Below, piece by piece: positions 19,377 to 28,610 of a DNA stretch of 64,000 nucleotides (its first letter is position 1; the number at the start of each line of letters is the position of its first letter). The position numbers and the translations under genes are program-made. This DNA is from Berryella intestinalis. Its GTDB lineage: Bacteria > Actinomycetota > Coriobacteriia > Coriobacteriales > Eggerthellaceae. The notes under the pieces are model-generated. The model ran no database searches. It was not told the origin of the DNA and was given only the letters and a program-made list of their open reading frames with translations. The stretch covers positions 62,001-126,000 of the forward strand of contig NZ_CP009302.1 of NCBI RefSeq assembly GCF_000814825.1, in the 5' to 3' direction.

Positions 19377-21692
19377 ATGTCTTCGTATGTATCTCATGTT
19401 AGCGAGGACGGTTCAAGGCGCGAGCCCATCGAAGTCCATCTAAGAGAAGTGGCGGACATGGCTGCGGAGTTCGCACGTCCGTTTGAGGCTGAAGCTTGGG
19501 CTTATGCAGCTGGAATAGCTCATGATATCGGGAAGTACTCTACTGAATTCCAGAATCGCATCTTGCATAACGGGCCAAAGGTCGATCACTCCACAGCTGG
19601 CGCGTTCGAGCTTTCGAAAAACCCAATGGCATGGCCTCTGTCTTACTGTGTTGCGGGGCATCATGGTGGGCTCCCCGATAGCGGCGTGCGCGAAGACGAT
19701 GGCGTTACGTTATTCGGTCGCTTAAGGAAAGCCGAGGAAGGCGACATCCCCTCGTATTCCTCCTTTGCCGAGAGTGTTGAGATCCCGGTCGTTACCGGCC
19801 TTCCTTCGGTTTTGTCGAGTCACAAGCAATCTGCCGGCCAGGAAAAAGGGGCAAGGGATCTGAAATTTTCGGCGGCATTCTTCACGCGAATGCTATTTAG
19901 CTGCCTGGTCGATGCGGATTTTCTCTGCACGGAGCGCTTCATGAAAGGAGCTGGTCGTTCTGAGCTTTCAGCTAAAAGTATTCCCGAGCTATGCGATATG
20001 CTCGAAAACCGACTTGAAAGCTTTTATCCTCCCAAAACGGATCTGAACAAAATCCGCTGTGGAATCCTTGATGATTGCCTGCGCGCCGCGACTGGGCGCG
20101 CTGGCGTGTATTCGCTTACCGTGCCGACGGGCGGAGGCAAAACGCTTGCAGCTATGCGTTTCGCCCTACAGCATTCACTCCGGTCGAATGGGGAAACAAG
20201 GCGTGTAATCATTGCTGAGCCCTACACCTCGATTATCGAACAGAACGCGGATGTGTACAGGGATATTTTCGGGAAAGAGAATGTTCTCGAGCATCATATG
20301 AATTTCGATTTCGATGAGAAGGAGGAGTTGGATTCTTGTAGCGATGCCGATCTCGTTTCCCGATTGAAGCTTGCAACCGAGAATTGGGATGTTCCCATTG
20401 TAGTGACGACTAACGTCCAGTTGTTCGAGTCGCTGCATTCAAACAAAACCTCGCGTTGCAGGAAGCTTCACAACATAGCGGGAAGCGTCATTGTCCTGGA
20501 TGAGGCGCAGATGATCCCCGCCCCGTTCTTGGCTCCATGCGTAAAAGTCCTCGCCGAGCTGGTTAAGTATTATCACTGTAGCGTGGTTCTCTGCTCAGCT
20601 ACGCAGCCAGCTCTCGAGCGCTTCTTCGAGGAGGAGGGGCTTTCGGTTTCCGAGATAGCAACGAGCGCGAAGGGGCTGTTCGATGCGATGCGTCGTGTAA
20701 CGTATCGAACCATTGGCGCCATCAACGATCACGATTTAGCCGAGCGCCTTTCTGAATGCGAACAGGTGCTCTGCATCGTTAATAGCCGAAAGCAGGCACG
20801 ATCCCTTTATGAGCGCATGGCGAATGAGGTCGATGGAAACCAGGATGATCGGGGGATTTATCATCTTTCGACTCTCATGTACCCAGACCACCGCCGCCGT
20901 GTCATCGAAAAAATCCGCATGCGTGTGAAATCTTCAGGAGGCTCGTGCGAGGCCTGCCGCGTGGTTTCTACCAGCTTGGTCGAGGCTGGTGTCGACCTGG
21001 ATTTCCCTGTTGTATATAGGGCCTTGGCTGGAATCGACTCTATTGTTCAGGCTGGTGGTCGTTGCAATCGCGAGGGAAAGAGGGGCTTGGATGATAGCAA
21101 GGTCTACGTATTCTGCCCGGCAGAAGCGTACGCCATTCCTCCAGAAGTGAAGCAACGGGCGTCTATCGCGCAGGGTTTTCTAGCCGAAGCTTCGGAATAT
21201 GTTGGGTTAGTCAAGGATGGAGATGCTGAATTCGATTTCGGCCTTCCCGAGACGATACGAAGCTTTTTCGATCGTCTGTACTTCTTTAAGAGAGCAAATG
21301 GAAGCGGGGGCGTAAACGGCCTGGATCGAGAGGGAATACTTGAGCTGCTTTGTCGCTATACGGCTTCAAAGAAGGGGGTGTTCATTCAGTTCGCGGAGGT
21401 TGCACGGAAGTTCCAGCTCATAGACCAGGGGTCGTGCCCGGTCATTATACCCGTCCCTGAAATCATGGACGAACTGAGAGCTTTGAAAGAGGGTTGCATA
21501 TCTCGCATTCCCCTGCGCAAGCTCACCAGATTCTCTGTGAGCGTGTACGACCATGACGTCAAAGCACTGCTGGGGGCTGGTGCCATCGAAGCTGTGTCAG
21601 AAGGGGTTTACGTGCTTGCAGATAAGAAGCGCTATCGCGAGGATACTGGTCTTGACCTGGAGGTGCAGGGAGGTGAGGGGATTTGCTGGTGA
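19377..21692 (+). CDS. cas3: CRISPR-associated nuclease/helicase Cas3, type I-C
   Basis: Degrades DNA marked by Cascade. It has 771 aa. The N-terminal HD nuclease domain has His21 and GIAHDIGKY (His49-Asp50). Walker A TGGGKT is near residue 251, the DEAQ box is at residues 375-378, and the helicase C-terminal motifs include the STSLVEAGVDLDFPVVYR stretch and QAGGRCNREGK. ATG 19377 follows a weak GGAG. It is separated from cas5 by 230 nt that hold a crRNA-like element and a new promoter, so it is probably transcribed apart from the rest. Confidence 0.97.
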   Translation: MSSYVSHVSEDGSRREPIEVHLREVADMAAEFARPFEAEAWAYAAGIAHDIGKYSTEFQNRILHNGPKVDHSTAGAFELSKNPMAWPLSYCVAGHHGGLPDSGVREDDGVTLFGRLRKAEEGDIPSYSSFAESVEIPVVTGLPSVLSSHKQSAGQEKGARDLKFSAAFFTRMLFSCLVDADFLCTERFMKGAGRSELSAKSIPELCDMLENRLESFYPPKTDLNKIRCGILDDCLRAATGRAGVYSLTVPTGGGKTLAAMRFALQHSLRSNGETRRVIIAEPYTSIIEQNADVYRDIFGKENVLEHHMNFDFDEKEELDSCSDADLVSRLKLATENWDVPIVVTTNVQLFESLHSNKTSRCRKLHNIAGSVIVLDEAQMIPAPFLAPCVKVLAELVKYYHCSVVLCSATQPALERFFEEEGLSVSEIATSAKGLFDAMRRVTYRTIGAINDHDLAERLSECEQVLCIVNSRKQARSLYERMANEVDGNQDDRGIYHLSTLMYPDHRRRVIEKIRMRVKSSGGSCEACRVVSTSLVEAGVDLDFPVVYRALAGIDSIVQAGGRCNREGKRGLDDSKVYVFCPAEAYAIPPEVKQRASIAQGFLAEASEYVGLVKDGDAEFDFGLPETIRSFFDRLYFFKRANGSGGVNGLDREGILELLCRYTASKKGVFIQFAEVARKFQLIDQGSCPVIIPVPEIMDELRALKEGCISRIPLRKLTRFSVSVYDHDVKALLGAGAIEAVSEGVYVLADKKRYREDTGLDLEVQGGEGICW

Positions 21693-21696
21693 GAGT

Positions 21697-21783
21697 GGGC
21701 CGCCGAAGCGGTCCAGACTCCGACCATTGAACGCTAACAAATTATTTCAACCCACGCTGCGCATTAGGGGACGCAGCGACGCG
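21697..21783 (-). ncRNA. Candidate crRNA-like RNA (degenerate repeat plus pseudo-spacer) targeting the cas5 promoter region
   Basis: On the minus strand, 21780-21744 is a degenerate CRISPR repeat. It has the 5' GT, a 7-bp stem CGCTGCG/CGCAGCG (21778-21772 with 21761-21755), a 10-nt loop, and then TGGGTTGAAAT. The last 11 nt and the 5' GT are identical to the array repeat, while the stem sequence differs but still pairs. The following sequence AATTTGTTAGC (21743-21733) is found again at 21900-21890 beside TTC. A UUCG-capped hairpin (21714-21697) may close the RNA. Cas5 of type I-C cleaves at the base of this stem, so a short crRNA with a normal handle could be made. Expression is not shown. 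Confidence 0.75.
21744..21780 (-). repeat. Degenerate CRISPR repeat between cas3 and cas5
   Basis: 37 nt against 33 nt in the array. The 5' GT and the terminal TGGGTTGAAAT are unchanged, and both have a stem starting at the third base and ending directly before that 11-mer. It is in the opposite direction to the array and to the cas genes. No other copy was found in the window outside the array. Confidence 0.85.
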
Positions 21784-21789
21784 CAGCCA

Positions 21790-21798
21790 ATCATGCCA
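21790..21798 (-). promoter_or_regulatory. Possible extended -10 promoter for the crRNA-like RNA
   Basis: The minus strand reads TGG-CATGAT, an extended -10 (TGn) form. Transcription would start around 21783, just before the degenerate repeat. The -35 (TTTCTT) is weak; an inverted repeat CTTTCT/AGAAAG (21804-21819) overlaps it. Confidence 0.4.
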
Positions 21799-21843
21799 GA
21801 TCTCTTTCTCAAAAGAAAGGGTGCCAGGCCGTAAGAAAGCCTC

Positions 21844-21872
21844 TTGACATTCTAATGCGAGAGGAATAGATT
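21844..21872 (+). promoter_or_regulatory. Promoter of the cas5-8c-7-4-1-2 operon
   Basis: TTGACA (21844-21849), a 17-nt spacer, and TAGATT (21867-21872). The predicted start is near 21879, about 44 nt before the cas5 GTG. The -35 is flanked by a 5-bp inverted repeat CCTCT/AGAGG (21840-21864). Confidence 0.65.
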
Positions 21873-21889
21873 GCAGAGTATATTTAAAT

Positions 21890-21903
21890 GCTAACAAATT
21901 GAA
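21890..21903 (-). promoter_or_regulatory. Target of the crRNA-like RNA with TTC PAM
   Basis: The minus strand reads TTC (21903-21901) followed by AATTTGTTAGC (21900-21890), identical to positions 1-11 of the pseudo-spacer. Beyond this, positions 13, 14, 16 and 17 also match; 12, 15 and 18 do not. Positions 12 and 18 are among those flipped out in Cascade-bound guides. A full protospacer would run to about 21866, covering the transcription start and the -10 of the cas5 promoter. Confidence 0.75.
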
Positions 21904-21922: not shown

Positions 21923-22588
21923 GTGGCTTTTGGAGTTAAGGTCGAGGTCTGGGGTTCGAACGCCTTGATTGCGAGGCCGGAGCTGTCGGTCGAGCGAATG
22001 ACTTACGACGTCCTCACCCCGAGCGCAGCTCGGGGTATCCTCGAGTCGGTGTACTGGCATCCAGGGATGCGCTATGTCATCGACCGCATTCACGTACTGA
22101 ACGAGATCAAGCGGACGAGCGTTCGTCGTAACGAGATATCTTCGAAGGCTCAGGCTTCGGCGATGAGGTCGGCGTTAATCAACGGGGGCGCCGCTCCCTA
22201 CGTTAACGCCAAATCGGATATAGTTCAACGTGCATCGGTGGTGCTTGTCGATGTGCGCTACATCATCGAAGCCCACTTCGAGATGACGGATGCCGCGGGA
22301 TCGTGCGATAACCCCGGGAAGTTTTGTGATATATTGCGTCGCCGCCTGCGAAAAGGGCAGTGTTATTCGCAACCTTATCTGGGGACGCGAGAATTTGCCT
22401 GTCATTGCAGGTTGCTCGAAGACGAGGATATTCCAACGGGGTTTTATGCTCGTGATGGCGAGCGAGACCTTGGATTGATGCTGTTCGATATGGATTACAG
22501 CGATCCGAGCGACATCGTTCCGATGTTTTTCCGTGCGGTGATGAAAAACGGAGTCATCGACGTTGCGGGAAGCGAGGTGTATCGCTGA
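21923..22588 (+). CDS. cas5c: Cas5 (type I-C, Cas5c/Cas5d), crRNA-processing subunit
   Basis: In type I-C, Cas5 replaces Cas6 and cuts the repeat hairpin; it then stays at the crRNA 5' handle. It has 221 aa from GTG 21923, chosen because AGGAGG (21910-21915) precedes it; earlier in-frame codons lie over the guide target. It reads AFGVKVEVWGSNALIARPELSVERMTYDVLTPSAARGILESVYWHPGMRYVID-type sequence through a RAMP fold with YSQPYLGTREF. It overlaps cas8c by one base (TGATG). Confidence 0.95.
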   Translation: MAFGVKVEVWGSNALIARPELSVERMTYDVLTPSAARGILESVYWHPGMRYVIDRIHVLNEIKRTSVRRNEISSKAQASAMRSALINGGAAPYVNAKSDIVQRASVVLVDVRYIIEAHFEMTDAAGSCDNPGKFCDILRRRLRKGQCYSQPYLGTREFACHCRLLEDEDIPTGFYARDGERDLGLMLFDMDYSDPSDIVPMFFRAVMKNGVIDVAGSEVYR

Positions 22589-24396
22589 TGTTGGCAGCGT
22601 TGGCAAGGTATTACGATCAACTTCTCGAAACCCATCCGGAAAAAGTGGCGCGCCCGGGTTGGTGCGCCCGGAAGGTGAAATTCGTTATTCAGCTTTCGAG
22701 CGAGGGATCGGTTTACTCCATCGTTCGCGATAGCGAGAAAAACGGCCTTGAAAGAGTCGTTCCCGAGCAAGTGAAGCGTTCGTCGGGCGTTTCTGCGAAC
22801 TTTCTCTGCGACAACTCTTCGTACTTGCTGGGGATTGATGCGAAGGGTAAGCCCGAGCGTTCGGAGAAGTGTTTTGCGGCAGCTAGAGAGCTCCATTGCG
22901 ACATTCTCAGGGAGACGGATTCCGTTTGCGCCCGCGCTCTGAGGCTGTTTTTTGAAACGTGGGATGTCGCATCCGCTCGAGAGCACCCCGCAGTTGTTGC
23001 GGCTGGAGATGAATTACTTACGGGTGGCAATATTGTGTTCGTAGTAACGCACGGCGGCTCTTCTGAAAGCGCCTTGGATGATGGGGAGATCGTCGAGGCA
23101 TGGGACAAGCGTTCTGCGCATTCAGACTCCGACGACTCCCCTGTCATGCGTTGTCTTGTCACGGGGGAAAAAGGACCCATCGCGCGCCTTCATCCGATAA
23201 TTCAAGGGGTTTATGGCGCACAGTCCTCGGGGGCTTCATTGGTGGGGTTTAATTCTCGCGCTTTCGAATCCTATGGGCATGAGGAAGAACAGGGCAGAAA
23301 CGCACCCGTGAGCATTCGGGCTGCGCGAGCGTATTCTACGGCGCTTAACTATTTACTGAAGGATCGCAATCATCATACGCGTCTCGGCGATACAACGTTG
23401 GTGTACTGGGCCGAGCGCTCCGATGATGAAAACTCGGAGCTTTTCGGCATAGCTCTCGGAGACCTAGGCGGAGAGGGCGCATCGAACGTAGAGTTGACGG
23501 AGAAGTCGCTGCACGAAACCTTGCAGTCGGTTGCGGAAGGGAAGCACCGTGCTCGGCCCGAGCTCGACACCACGTTCTACGTGGCCGGCCTGGCTCCTAA
23601 TGCGGCGCGTTTGTCGGTGCGCTTTTTCTTTAAGGATAACTTCGGCGATATCTTGGAGAACATCGCCCAGCATTACAGGCGCATTGCGATTGCGCATCAT
23701 CCGCAAGATCGAGAATACTTAACGCCTTACCAGTTGCTTCATTCTCTGGAAAACCCTAACGCGAAAAAACCGACAGTAATGTCTGTTTTGAGCGAGCCGC
23801 TTATGAGGGCGATCTTGTTCAATGCGCGCTATCCGGAAGCGGCTTACATGCAGGCGCTGCAAAGGACGTTTTCCTCTCAAGATAATGAGGATAAGCGAAC
23901 GAAAAAAGTTTCAAGGGCGCGCGTTGCGCTTATCAAGGCGTGTTTGCTTAGAAATTATGGTTATGACGAAGAGGAGGTTACGGTGGATCTTAATGAAGGA
24001 AGGAGCAGCACAGCGTACGCTCTTGGTCGGACGTTTGCTTTGCTCGAGCAGATTCAGGAAACTGCCAACAAAAGCTCGAACATCTCGGGGCGGTATTTCA
24101 ATTCTGCATGCGCCACGCCGGGGGTAGCGTTCCCTGCGTTGCTGAGGCTTACCAGTGCCCATCTTCAAAAGATCGGGCGAGATAACCCCGGGCTTGCTCA
24201 CTACTTCCGAACCCAGCTTGCCGGCATGATCAAAGAAGATAGAGTGTCTGCGTTCCCCAAACGGCTTTCTTCCGCTGAACAGGGAAATTTCTTGCTTGGG
24301 TATTGGCATCAGCAGCAAAAGCGTTACGAGAAGAAGGAGAAAGTCGGCTCCGATTCTTCCGATCAGGTTCAGTCCGATCAACCTTCCGACGTTTAA
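22588..24396 (+). CDS. cas8c: Cas8c (Csd1), large subunit of type I-C Cascade
   Basis: Recognises the PAM and helps open target DNA. It has 602 aa, the usual size. It starts MLAALARYYDQLLE and has the Csd1 features GLAPNAARLSVRFF and YFNSACATPGVAFPALLRL near the C-terminus. In type I-C an internal start produces the small subunit Cas11c; the C-terminal third here could do the same, but I did not single out a start codon. Translationally coupled to cas5. Confidence 0.96.
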   Translation: MLAALARYYDQLLETHPEKVARPGWCARKVKFVIQLSSEGSVYSIVRDSEKNGLERVVPEQVKRSSGVSANFLCDNSSYLLGIDAKGKPERSEKCFAAARELHCDILRETDSVCARALRLFFETWDVASAREHPAVVAAGDELLTGGNIVFVVTHGGSSESALDDGEIVEAWDKRSAHSDSDDSPVMRCLVTGEKGPIARLHPIIQGVYGAQSSGASLVGFNSRAFESYGHEEEQGRNAPVSIRAARAYSTALNYLLKDRNHHTRLGDTTLVYWAERSDDENSELFGIALGDLGGEGASNVELTEKSLHETLQSVAEGKHRARPELDTTFYVAGLAPNAARLSVRFFFKDNFGDILENIAQHYRRIAIAHHPQDREYLTPYQLLHSLENPNAKKPTVMSVLSEPLMRAILFNARYPEAAYMQALQRTFSSQDNEDKRTKKVSRARVALIKACLLRNYGYDEEEVTVDLNEGRSSTAYALGRTFALLEQIQETANKSSNISGRYFNSACATPGVAFPALLRLTSAHLQKIGRDNPGLAHYFRTQLAGMIKEDRVSAFPKRLSSAEQGNFLLGYWHQQQKRYEKKEKVGSDSSDQVQSDQPSDV

Positions 24397-24423: not shown

Positions 24424-25332
24424 ATGTCTGATCCGATTAAGAACCGCTACGATTTCGTCGTTTATTTCGATGTCGAGAACGGAAACCCAAATGGTGACCC
24501 CGATGCGGGCAATATGCCGCGCGTTGACTCTGAGACGGGGTACGGCTTGGTAACCGATGTGTGCTTGAAGCGGAAGATTCGCAACTACGTTGAAATGGTG
24601 CGCGAGGGTCAAAAAGGGTTCGAGATCTACATCAAAGACGGGGTGCCGCTCAACCGTAGCGATATGCGCGCTTTCGAGAGCCAGGGGATTGAGGCTGGCG
24701 AGGTTACCAAAGATTCGATCAAGAAACTTAAGAAGGACGACCCGGAGCTTGATGCAAAACTGCGGGACTACATGTGCCAAACTTTCTTCGATGTTCGCAC
24801 GTTCGGTGCGGTTATGACCACGTTCGTTAAGAATTCCCTGAACTGCGGTCAGGTGAGAGGTCCCGTGCAGCTTACGTTCGCCCGAAGCGTCGACCCCATT
24901 GTGCAGCAGGAGGTCACAATCACACGCGTAGCCATCACAACGGAAGAAGCGGCAGAAAAGAAAGAAACGGAGATGGGCCGAAAGTGCATCGTTCCTTATG
25001 CTCTGTATCGATGCGAAGGGTTCGTGTCCGCCAACCTCGCTCGTAAGACAACGGGCTTCTCTGAAGATGACCTGGAGCTTCTTTGGGAAAGCATCATAAA
25101 CATGTTCGAACATGATCGCTCTGCGGCTCGTGGGAAAATGGCGATCAGGAAGCTTGTTGTTTTTAAGCACGATTCGGAATTCGGAAACGCTCCGGCGCAT
25201 AGCTTGTTTGATTTGGTGCGTGTTCAGCGGAAAGAGGGAATGGAGGCTCCCCGGTCGTTTTCGGATTACGAGGGCATCGTTGTTGACGAAGCCGCTGTCC
25301 CCGAGGGGGTTGAGGTTATTCTCAAGCTATAG
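24424..25332 (+). CDS. cas7c: Cas7 (Csd2), backbone subunit of type I-C Cascade
   Basis: Forms the helical backbone along the crRNA. It has 302 aa. The N-terminus NRYDFVVYFDVENGNPNGDPDAGNMPR is the Csd2 signature; FFDVRTFGAVMTTF and RGPVQLTFARSVDPI follow. The ATG follows CAGGAGATAAATT. Highest-copy subunit of the complex. Confidence 0.97.
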   Translation: MSDPIKNRYDFVVYFDVENGNPNGDPDAGNMPRVDSETGYGLVTDVCLKRKIRNYVEMVREGQKGFEIYIKDGVPLNRSDMRAFESQGIEAGEVTKDSIKKLKKDDPELDAKLRDYMCQTFFDVRTFGAVMTTFVKNSLNCGQVRGPVQLTFARSVDPIVQQEVTITRVAITTEEAAEKKETEMGRKCIVPYALYRCEGFVSANLARKTTGFSEDDLELLWESIINMFEHDRSAARGKMAIRKLVVFKHDSEFGNAPAHSLFDLVRVQRKEGMEAPRSFSDYEGIVVDEAAVPEGVEVILKL

Positions 25333-25340
25333 GAACCCTT

Positions 25341-25997
25341 ATGTTTGACGAAGATAGGTACCTGGCTCTTTCCGGTATCCAGCATTTCTCATTTTGCCGA
25401 AGACAGTGGGCCCTCATACACATCGAACGAGTTTGGGCTGAGAATCTGCTCACCGTGCAGGGGTCCCTTATGCACGATCGGGCTCATGATGAGGGTATTC
25501 GAGAGCGCCGAGGCAGCATGATCTCGGTGCGGGGGCTCAACGTTCATTCGCGAAGGCTTGGCATTTGGGGTAAATGCGATGTCGTCGAATTTCATCTTGA
25601 TCCTGAAGGCCATCCTCTCGCTGGGGAGGATGGCCTTTGGCGCACGGTGCCCATCGAATACAAGCGCGGATCGGCGAAGCTTGTCGATGCAGATCGTTTG
25701 CAACTTTGCGCGCAAGCAATGTGCCTTGAGGAGATGTTCGCCGAAGATATAAAGGTGGGATATCTTTTCTACGGGCAGACAAGATCTCGTGAACGCGTTG
25801 ATATGACCGACGGCTTGCGGACCGAGGTCGAGGGTCTGCTCTCTGAGATGCAAGGTCTTTATGATAAGCGATACGTTCCCCGCGTTAAGCCGTTTGCGGC
25901 GTGCAGGTCGTGCTCTCTTTGCAAGTTATGCCTTCCGAAAACGAGCGGAATGCAGGTCGGGTCTTACATAGAGAAGAGTTTGGAGGGCTCGCTATGA
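25341..25997 (+). CDS. cas4: Cas4 PAM-selecting exonuclease
   Basis: Trims prespacers and sets PAM choice and spacer orientation. It has 218 aa. Four Cys expected to hold the [4Fe-4S] cluster are visible: FSFCRRQWAL near the N-terminus, and CRSCSLCKLCLP near the C-terminus. The RecB-type nuclease motif VPIEYKRGSAKL is present. Its stop overlaps the cas1 ATG (ATGA). Confidence 0.96.
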   Translation: MFDEDRYLALSGIQHFSFCRRQWALIHIERVWAENLLTVQGSLMHDRAHDEGIRERRGSMISVRGLNVHSRRLGIWGKCDVVEFHLDPEGHPLAGEDGLWRTVPIEYKRGSAKLVDADRLQLCAQAMCLEEMFAEDIKVGYLFYGQTRSRERVDMTDGLRTEVEGLLSEMQGLYDKRYVPRVKPFAACRSCSLCKLCLPKTSGMQVGSYIEKSLEGSL

Positions 25998-27025
25998 GGC
26001 GCCTGTTGAACACCCTGTATATTCTGACGGAGGATGCCTATCTTGCCCTCGATGGAGACAACGTTGTCGCAAAGCAAGGAGGGGCCGAGTTGGGGAGGGT
26101 TCCCCTTCATACGCTCGAAGGTATTCAGGTGTTTTCATATGCGGGCGCGAGTCCCGCTCTGATGGGGGCGTGCGCCGCAAAAGGCATAGCGATGGGGTTT
26201 TACGATCGGCATGGTAGGTTTCTTGCGGATGTCCAAGGGGAGTTCGTGGGTAATGTGCTGTTGCGGAAAGCTCAGTACGAAAGCGCCTTTGACGAGGAGA
26301 GATGCTTGGCGATCGCTCGGAATTTCATTCTTGGAAAGGTGTTCAATTGCAAGTGGATCTTAGAAAGGGCGCTGCGAGACCATGGCTTACGGATCGATGC
26401 TTCGTCGGTGAAGGAAGCTTCTAGTAGGCTGAGTGCCTCGTTAACGGAAATTCGCTCATGTCGCTCTCTCGAGAGTCTACGTGGGATAGAAGGAGACGCG
26501 GCGGCCGTTTACTTCGGTGTTTTCGATGAGCTGATTTTGCGAGAAAAAGAGACCTTTTACTTCAGAGGCCGCACGAGACGGCCCCCTCTTGATGCGGTAA
26601 ATGCAATGCTGTCTTTGTTCTATACCGTGTTGGCTCGAGATTGTTCAGCTGCTTTGCGCGGGGTAGGCTTGGATCCTTACATGGGGTTCTTGCACGTTGA
26701 AAGGCCGGGACGTCGCTCCCTTGCTTTGGATTGCATGGAAGAGCTGAGGCCGGTTTTGGTTGATCGATTCGTTCTTTCGGCGGTAAATAACCGGGTGGTG
26801 AATTCCAGCCATTTTCAAATGCGAGAGACGGGCGAGGTGGGTCTGAATTCGGAAGGACGGCGGGTGCTTTTCGATGCCTGGCAGAACAAGAAACGGGAAA
26901 GTATGACGCATCCGTTCGTAAAGGAGAAGATCCCGTGGGGGCTGGTTCCGTTTGTTCAAGCCCAATTATTCGGGAAGTTTCTTCGAGGGGACCTCGATCA
27001 GTATCCTCCGGTATTTTGGAAGTAA
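25994..27025 (+). CDS. cas1: Cas1 integrase
   Basis: Inserts new spacers together with Cas2. It has 343 aa from ATG 25994 (GGAGGG upstream); the longer open frame in front lies within cas4. Characteristic parts are LNTLYILTEDAYLALDGDNVVAK, GRTRRPPLDAVNAMLSLFYTVLARDC with the active-site region, and GLDPYMGFLHVERPGRRSLALDCMEELRPVLVD-like sequence with the metal-binding His and Asp. Confidence 0.97.
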   Translation: MRRLLNTLYILTEDAYLALDGDNVVAKQGGAELGRVPLHTLEGIQVFSYAGASPALMGACAAKGIAMGFYDRHGRFLADVQGEFVGNVLLRKAQYESAFDEERCLAIARNFILGKVFNCKWILERALRDHGLRIDASSVKEASSRLSASLTEIRSCRSLESLRGIEGDAAAVYFGVFDELILREKETFYFRGRTRRPPLDAVNAMLSLFYTVLARDCSAALRGVGLDPYMGFLHVERPGRRSLALDCMEELRPVLVDRFVLSAVNNRVVNSSHFQMRETGEVGLNSEGRRVLFDAWQNKKRESMTHPFVKEKIPWGLVPFVQAQLFGKFLRGDLDQYPPVFWK

Positions 27026-27036
27026 GGAGGACGGCT

Positions 27037-27327
27037 ATGATGCTTCTCGTTACGTACGACGTTGACACCGCCGATTTAGCGGGCGAGAGACGTCTTCGAA
27101 AGGTCGCCAGGGTATGTGTGAGTTACGGGCAGCGAGTTCAAAACTCGGTTTTCGAGTGCGTTGGCGACGCTTCAGTAATTGAGAAGATGAAGTCCGAGCT
27201 TCTTTCAGTTATCGATACGGATAAGGATAGCTTACGGTTCTATAATTTAGGAAACGGCTACCATTCCAAGATCGAACATCACGGGGCCAAACCGTCTTAC
27301 GATGCCGAAGGGTTCTTAGCGCTATAG
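27037..27327 (+). CDS. cas2: Cas2
   Basis: Structural partner of Cas1 in adaptation. It has 96 aa, from ATG 27037 or 27040 behind AAGGAGG. It starts MMLLVTYDVDTAD with the conserved Asp, then RRLRKVARVCVSYGQRVQNSVFEC, typical of the type I-C Cas2. The leader follows directly. Confidence 0.96.
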   Translation: MMLLVTYDVDTADLAGERRLRKVARVCVSYGQRVQNSVFECVGDASVIEKMKSELLSVIDTDKDSLRFYNLGNGYHSKIEHHGAKPSYDAEGFLAL

Positions 27328-27499: not shown

Positions 27500-28610
27500 G
27501 TCTCCCTCCTCACGGAGGGAGTGGGTTGAAATTTTTTACATAAGTAGTACACGAAATCCGCATAATCGTCTCCCTCCTCACGGAGGGAGTGGGTTGAAAT
27601 GGCCTCAACCCCCAGTATAGAAAATAAGGGTTGGTCTCCCTCCTCACGGAGGGAGTGGGTTGAAATTTATCGACCTTGGCGGAAAGGTTGGAGAGCGTGG
27701 TCTCCCTCCTCACGGAGGGAGTGGGTTGAAATTGGCGCTGCGCTTCCTCGTTTGCTGCGTTCGCGGGTCTCCCTCCTCACGGAGGGAGTGGGTTGAAATT
27801 AGAGCAGAGGGCCTTTTTGGCGTCGCTGGAGCCGTCTCCCTCCTCACGGAGGGAGTGGGTTGAAATTCCCTTCGATCGAGCCAGTTGTTGAACACTTGGG
27901 TCTCCCTCCTCACGGAGGGAGTGGGTTGAAATCGCTCGCCCCTCCGCGAAGCGTCGGCGACTCGTCGTCTCCCTCCTCACGGAGGGAGTGGGTTGAAATG
28001 AAACCGATTTCACGCGTCCAAAAATGCTCTAAAAGTCTCCCTCCTCACGGAGGGAGTGGGTTGAAATCCGCCGCCGCGAACCCGTCACGCGGCTCCATTA
28101 GGTCTCCCTCCTCACGGAGGGAGTGGGTTGAAATACCTCCTCTACCTCGTTGTTTACTCAATTGAGTAAGTCTCCCTCCTCACGGAGGGAGTGGGTTGAA
28201 ATGCGCGTCGGCCTCCCTCCGCTGGGAGGAGCTGTCCGTCTCCCTCCTCACGGAGGGAGTGGGTTGAAATGTGCCCGACTTCGTCGTCATGAACACGCTC
28301 TTGCCGTCTCCCTCCTCACGGAGGGAGTGGGTTGAAATCCGCAGTCGGTGCATCGTCCCTTGGTGCGCTCGATGTCTCCCTCCTCACGGAGGGAGTGGGT
28401 TGAAATGGAGCGTGGTGCGAGTCCGAGGGCCTGCAGATCAGTCTCCCTCCTCACGGAGGGAGTGGGTTGAAATCTGACGGCGCTCATCGTCTACCAGGCG
28501 ATCGACCTGTCTCCCTCCTCACGGAGGGAGTGGGTTGAAATATCTGGCCTTCGTATGAGCCTTACCTATCGCGCTACGTCTCCCTCTTCACGGAGGGGGA
28601 GTTCCGAAAT
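27500..28610 (+). CRISPR. Type I-C CRISPR array, 17 repeats and 16 spacers
   Basis: The repeat is 33 nt: GT, an 8-bp stem CTCCCTCC/GGAGGGAG with loop TCAC, and the 3' tail TGGGTTGAAAT. Repeats start at 27500, 27568, 27634, 27700, 27767, 27834, 27900, 27967, 28035, 28102, 28170, 28238, 28306, 28374, 28441, 28509 and 28578. The first 16 are identical; the last (28578-28610) is degenerate in its 3' half, so it marks the leader-distal end. Spacers are 33-36 nt. I saw no spacer with an evident match elsewhere in the window. Transcription should run from the leader on the plus strand. Confidence 0.99.

Follow-up and report, generated by a model that had tools for sequence, protein, structure and literature searches.

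A one-repeat crRNA-like element between cas3 and cas5 as a probable CreR-type autorepressor of a type I-C cas operon

A type I-C CRISPR-Cas locus of Berryella intestinalis, situated within the 64,000-nucleotide stretch of DNA analysed here (the window), carries between its cas3 and cas5 genes an element that is very probably a type I-C CreR, that is, a Cas-autorepressing crRNA-like RNA for the cas5-cas8c-cas7-cas4-cas1-cas2 operon. Its guide most likely serves the CRISPR system as a dimmer switch of the system's own making. An earlier note on this DNA had proposed that the CreA/CreR principle is at work here, and this principle turns out to be the right one, with guide and target changing together across 40 type I-C loci.

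The locus in the window is complete and is encoded on the plus strand. It consists of cas3 (19377–21692), which lies upstream of the element and likely forms its own transcription unit, cas5c (21923–22588; TIGR01876), which has a GTG start, encodes the repeat-processing subunit and heads the putatively repressed operon, cas8c (22588–24396; TIGR01863), cas7c (24424–25332; TIGR02589), and cas4, cas1c and cas2 (25341–27327, with the true cas1 and cas2 starts inside the listed open reading frames). The CRISPR array follows at 27500–28610 (repeat GTCTCCCTCCTCACGGAGGGAGTGGGTTGAAAT) and comprises 16 intact repeats and one degenerate terminal repeat. In the latter (28578–28610) the 3' part is degenerate and the handle is lost; degenerate terminal repeats are usual in CRISPR arrays.

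The element itself is located on the minus strand of the 230 bp that separate cas3 from cas5, outside the array and inside the cas locus. It starts with a degenerate, solitary type I-C repeat (psi-repeat; GTCGCTGCGTCCCCTAATGCGCAGCGTGGGTTGAAAT, 21744–21780), composed of GTC, a stem of 7–8 bp, a loop and a handle, a layout that is the same in 40 loci. The bases of the stem differ from those of the array repeat yet still pair, and the psi-repeat folds into a stem-loop of -14.2 kcal/mol, compared with -15.4 kcal/mol for the array repeat with its other stem bases. The 11-nt 5' handle TGGGTTGAAAT (21744–21754) is identical to the 3' end of the array repeat, so that both the stem and the handle needed for processing are kept. 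Within the window, copies of this handle occur only in the psi-repeat and the 16 array repeats, and the same 17 places are the only ones in the 1.97-Mb genome at which GTGGGTTGAAAT is found with at most one mismatch. The handle is followed by a guide (psi-spacer) of up to 29 nt, AATTTGTTAGCGTTCAATGGTCGGAGTCT (21715–21743), whose positions 1–17, AATTTGTTAGCGTTCAA (21727–21743), carry the complementarity to the target, and the guide is closed by a GC-rich hairpin, GGACCGC-TTCG-GCGGCCC (21697–21714). The position and letters of the repeat, its paired stem of other bases and its exact 11-nt tail had all been read correctly before; the hairpin is an additional part of the element that had gone unnamed. 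A search of the element against Rfam gave no match at the gathering score.

Relatives of the element indicate how its transcription unit may be organized. When they are aligned on the first base of the repeat, they show a TATAAT-like box, conserved in its spacing, at -12 together with a TTGACA-like one close to -35, and the guide RNA is therefore expected to start with the repeat. Nearly all relatives have a stable hairpin after the guide (median z -5.7). Both features are weaker in the window than in the relatives: the possible -10 of the guide RNA's own promoter (CATGAT, 21795–21790) departs from the consensus and is weak, and promoter scoring gave no sigma-70 site on the minus strand there, whereas the hairpin, which is likely the 3' end or terminator-like, has no T-run and is not more stable than dinucleotide shuffles.

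The guide finds its counterpart upstream of cas5. Its first 11-mer, GCTAACAAATT, occurs only twice in the window, 157 bp apart, and the second copy belongs to a 17-nt target (protospacer seed; AATTTGTTAGCATTTAA, 21884–21900, minus strand) with the PAM TTC directly on its 5' side (21901–21903). Guide and target are identical at positions 1–11, 13, 14, 16 and 17, that is, at 15 of 17 positions, as the earlier note had stated. In the 1.97-Mb genome, TTC followed by the guide pattern has one perfect site, with three mismatches in the next real site, and when the 230-bp gap was subjected to 5000 dinucleotide shuffles, no shuffled sequence equalled the 14 of 15 non-flipped positions matched in the window. 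TTC has been shown to be the type I-C PAM in Xanthomonas (PMC8406640). The complementarity is limited and lies beside the PAM of the subtype, at a cas promoter: promoter scoring predicts a good sigma-70 promoter of the cas5 operon at 21844–21872 (TTGACA-17-TAGATT, with TTGACA from 21844 and TAGATT from 21867). Relative to the predicted start, the 17-nt paired stretch occupies about +5 to +21. The ribosome-binding site and the GTG at 21923 follow just downstream, with 22 bp between target and cas5 start. The target had been described as covering the transcription start and the -10; given the place of the paired stretch, the -10 is reached only by the unpaired part of the footprint, which if full-length would extend to 21866.

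A search for the exact repeat in other genomes of the order gave no match, and comparison with other loci therefore rests on layout, not letters. The sample consisted of 80 named loci with Cas5c relatives, together with 14 oriented loci from the family to which the window belongs. Forty type I-C loci, mostly from Coriobacteriia and Clostridia, have one handle-bearing stem-loop with a solitary degenerate repeat, and each has a different guide and a matching TTC-flanked site upstream of cas5 or cas3. Across these loci guide and target agree in 97–100% at positions 1–5, 38% at position 6, 90–97% at positions 7–11, 15% at position 12 and 62–82% at positions 13–17, and from position 18 onward at about chance. 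As the target search had scored positions 1–5, 7–11 and 13–17, targets were chosen again on smaller sets of positions. With targets chosen by positions 1–5 alone, the match was 79–95% at 7–11, 51–82% at 13–17, 36% at 6 and 18% at 12, and the positional pattern also persisted with targets chosen by 7–11 and 13–17 alone. When no PAM was required, the best-matching site within 5 kb had TTC in front of it for 27 of 29 elements, about five ties having been settled in favour of TTC by sorting, and TTT for the other two (L049 and L108), which suggests a relaxed PAM for these regulatory guides. In the case of CreA, pairing at positions 1–5 and 7–11 beside TTC suffices for repression by Cascade, with 6 and 12 free (PMC8501985). 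Constrained positions 1–5, 7–11 and 13–17 next to unconstrained positions 6 and 12 are what pairing within Cascade would predict. At three loci (L023, L030 and L036) the match beyond position 10 or 11 goes on with an apparent one-base offset, as though the guide passed over one of its bases close to position 12, which is flipped.

The presence of the element in the cas3-cas5 gap follows the length of that gap. It lies there in 33 of 40 loci with a gap of at least 190 bp (a recognisable element is missing in the remaining seven) and in none of 44 with a shorter gap; in a second sample from the order, 6 of 7 loci with a gap above 160 bp carry it, as opposed to 0 of 11 with a short gap. Seven of eight distant plasmid-borne I-C loci lack an element and one has a borderline match, and for this reason the element appears to be a lineage-bound trait of some I-C loci only. 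In several short-gap loci the element instead precedes cas3 and is directed at a site in that region; at L017, L088, L095 and L104–L107 it lies about 2.5–2.9 kb upstream of cas5. One locus (L052) has two elements with different guides, at -2530 (cas3 side) and -143 (cas5 side) relative to cas5. The earlier suggestion that cas3 escapes repression accordingly fits the window, in which no second element was found within 5 kb upstream of cas5 at up to one mismatch in the handle, but does not hold generally.

In four Clostridia loci (L024, L028, L031 and L032) two genes are inserted between the element and cas5, at about -1100 to 0. The first encodes a DUF3990 protein (PF13151; E 1e-46 to 1e-52 in the three loci tested), a family belonging to the ADP-ribosyltransferase clan (PMC7955679), and the second a partner of about 150 aa; decayed remnants of this module are present at L023, L025, L030 and L036. 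The guides of the four loci match a TTC-flanked site that precedes the DUF3990 gene, and they face the promoter of the module, an arrangement resembling CRISPR-regulated toxin-antitoxin coupling. The element could on this basis be an antitoxin-like guide of the CreA kind, with a toxin rather than the cas genes as primary target, but for the window we regard this as very improbable: the gap of 230 bp, with the target 22 bp from the cas5 start, has no room taken by an extra gene of the DUF3990 kind.

The degenerate and solitary repeat could alternatively be the functionless relic of a decaying array or a self-targeting spacer, and the gap is indeed able to hold arrays, as one locus (L029) illustrates. 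Such a relic would hardly be expected to keep a stem paired with new bases, a pairing that ends at about position 17, unlike that of an acquired spacer, or a -10 spacing that is conserved among relatives, nor would its guide and target be expected to co-change. Own guide-target pairs reached at least 12 of 15 matches at 22 of 32 loci, compared with 8 of 2912 pairs in which guides and targets had been swapped between loci; the exceptions are few and mostly concern close orthologues, and L003–L016 served as decoys only. Close pairs of loci display the changes one by one: position 10 goes from G/G to A/A in guide and target between L058 and L060 (94% Cas5 identity), paired changes are seen at positions 8, 9 and 17 between L067 and L075 (94%), and at positions 7, 8 and 15 between L138 and L139 (70%). 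By the swap control and the close pairs alike, guide and target co-evolve. The earlier note had named independent drift of the two in relatives as the outcome that would speak against its reading; this drift was looked for and not seen in close relatives, guide and target changing together both in the 40 loci and in the close pairs. We give a functionless relic very little chance. Least probable of all is a direct-repeat operator for a protein regulator, in which the two copies of GCTAACAAATT would be the binding sites and the resemblance to a CRISPR repeat accidental. Operators do commonly consist of two such direct repeats on either side of a promoter, in this case 11 bp long and 157 bp apart. 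Against this, the 11-mer varies in every species while handle, stem and TTC neighbour stay constant, the mismatches fall at the flipped positions of Cascade, and the guides fail against the promoters of other species. The operator-repeat and dead-array readings were both rejected on the evidence of the swap control and the co-changes.

Under the preferred reading, CreR-type autorepression, the element would be a gene in its own right, encoding a crRNA-like RNA that is loaded into the locus's own Cascade. Transcription of the minus strand would start at about 21780–21784, and a Cas5c cut on the 3' side of the degenerate stem would leave the 11-nt handle in place. The TTC-flanked site would then be bound by the Cas5-Cas8c-Cas7 complex, at 21900–21884, through about 15 paired bases, probably enough for binding of the site and too few for destruction of the chromosome by Cas3. 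Killing by the Xanthomonas I-C system requires at least 27 matched bases (PMC8406640), and 15–17 should therefore allow binding without cleavage. A degenerate repeat is known to guard against recombination and to tie the guide that it accompanies to its own Cas proteins (PMC9458426). Competition by array crRNAs and relief by anti-CRISPR proteins have been described for CreR (PMC12737573) and may, by analogy, apply to the element in the window. At the cas5 promoter, the bound complex would block transcription when it initiates or in early elongation, and repression would be relieved when array crRNAs become more abundant or when Cascade is scarce or inhibited.

With the element, cas autorepression by a guide RNA would extend to type I-C, a subtype that is common and is the one used for editing in gut Actinobacteria. 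Where a strain is edited with its own I-C system, Cas levels should rise once the guide RNA is removed or titrated. In addition, dozens of natural guide-target pairs make it possible to read, on the basis of sequence alone, how little pairing is needed for repression by Cascade. A broader proposal is more tentative, and we hold it as possible, somewhat short of an even chance: that the I-C loci of Coriobacteriia and Clostridia harbour an undescribed lineage of one-repeat, hairpin-ended CreR that moves with the operon promoter and is in part coupled to an in-locus DUF3990 gene, one guide linking cas autoregulation and addiction. No published type I-C CreR was found in the literature searched, outside of which lay the original CreR paper and a 2023 survey of CRISPR-derived regulatory elements; an earlier published I-C prediction may exist. 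The distinguishing trait of the probable CreR in the window is its one-repeat I-C layout.

Three groups of known RNAs come close to the element. Racrs, or solitary repeat units (PMC10651486), likewise have a solitary repeat that mimics the array repeat and include an I-C example, RacrIC1, but they are encoded by viruses or prophages, do not carry a guide for a cas promoter and inhibit CRISPR through aberrant complexes, whereas the element is chromosomal, has a targeting guide and sits in a complete I-C locus, flanked by cas3 and cas5. CreA of the type I-B CreTA modules of haloarchaea (PMC8501985, PMC9458426) shares with it the degenerate repeat, pairing at positions 1–5 and 7–11 with 6 and 12 free, and the TTC PAM, and is also known in a comparable one-repeat form ending with a terminator. 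CreA represses an RNA toxin; the only genomic target of the element is the cas5 promoter, no additional gene is present in the gap, and it is thus the cas operon itself that is targeted. The third group is CreR, the cas-regulating RNA (Liu et al. 2023, Cell Host Microbe 31:1481, as cited in PMC13131331 and PMC12737573), for which autorepression has been reported in types I-B, I-E and V-A (PMC13131331). In contrast to the reported examples, the element belongs to type I-C, has one repeat in place of a two-repeat mini-CRISPR and would be processed by Cas5c instead of Cas6. Both are crRNA-like, with a degenerate repeat near the cas genes and partial complementarity to a cas promoter, and for both Cascade-mediated autorepression is to be expected.
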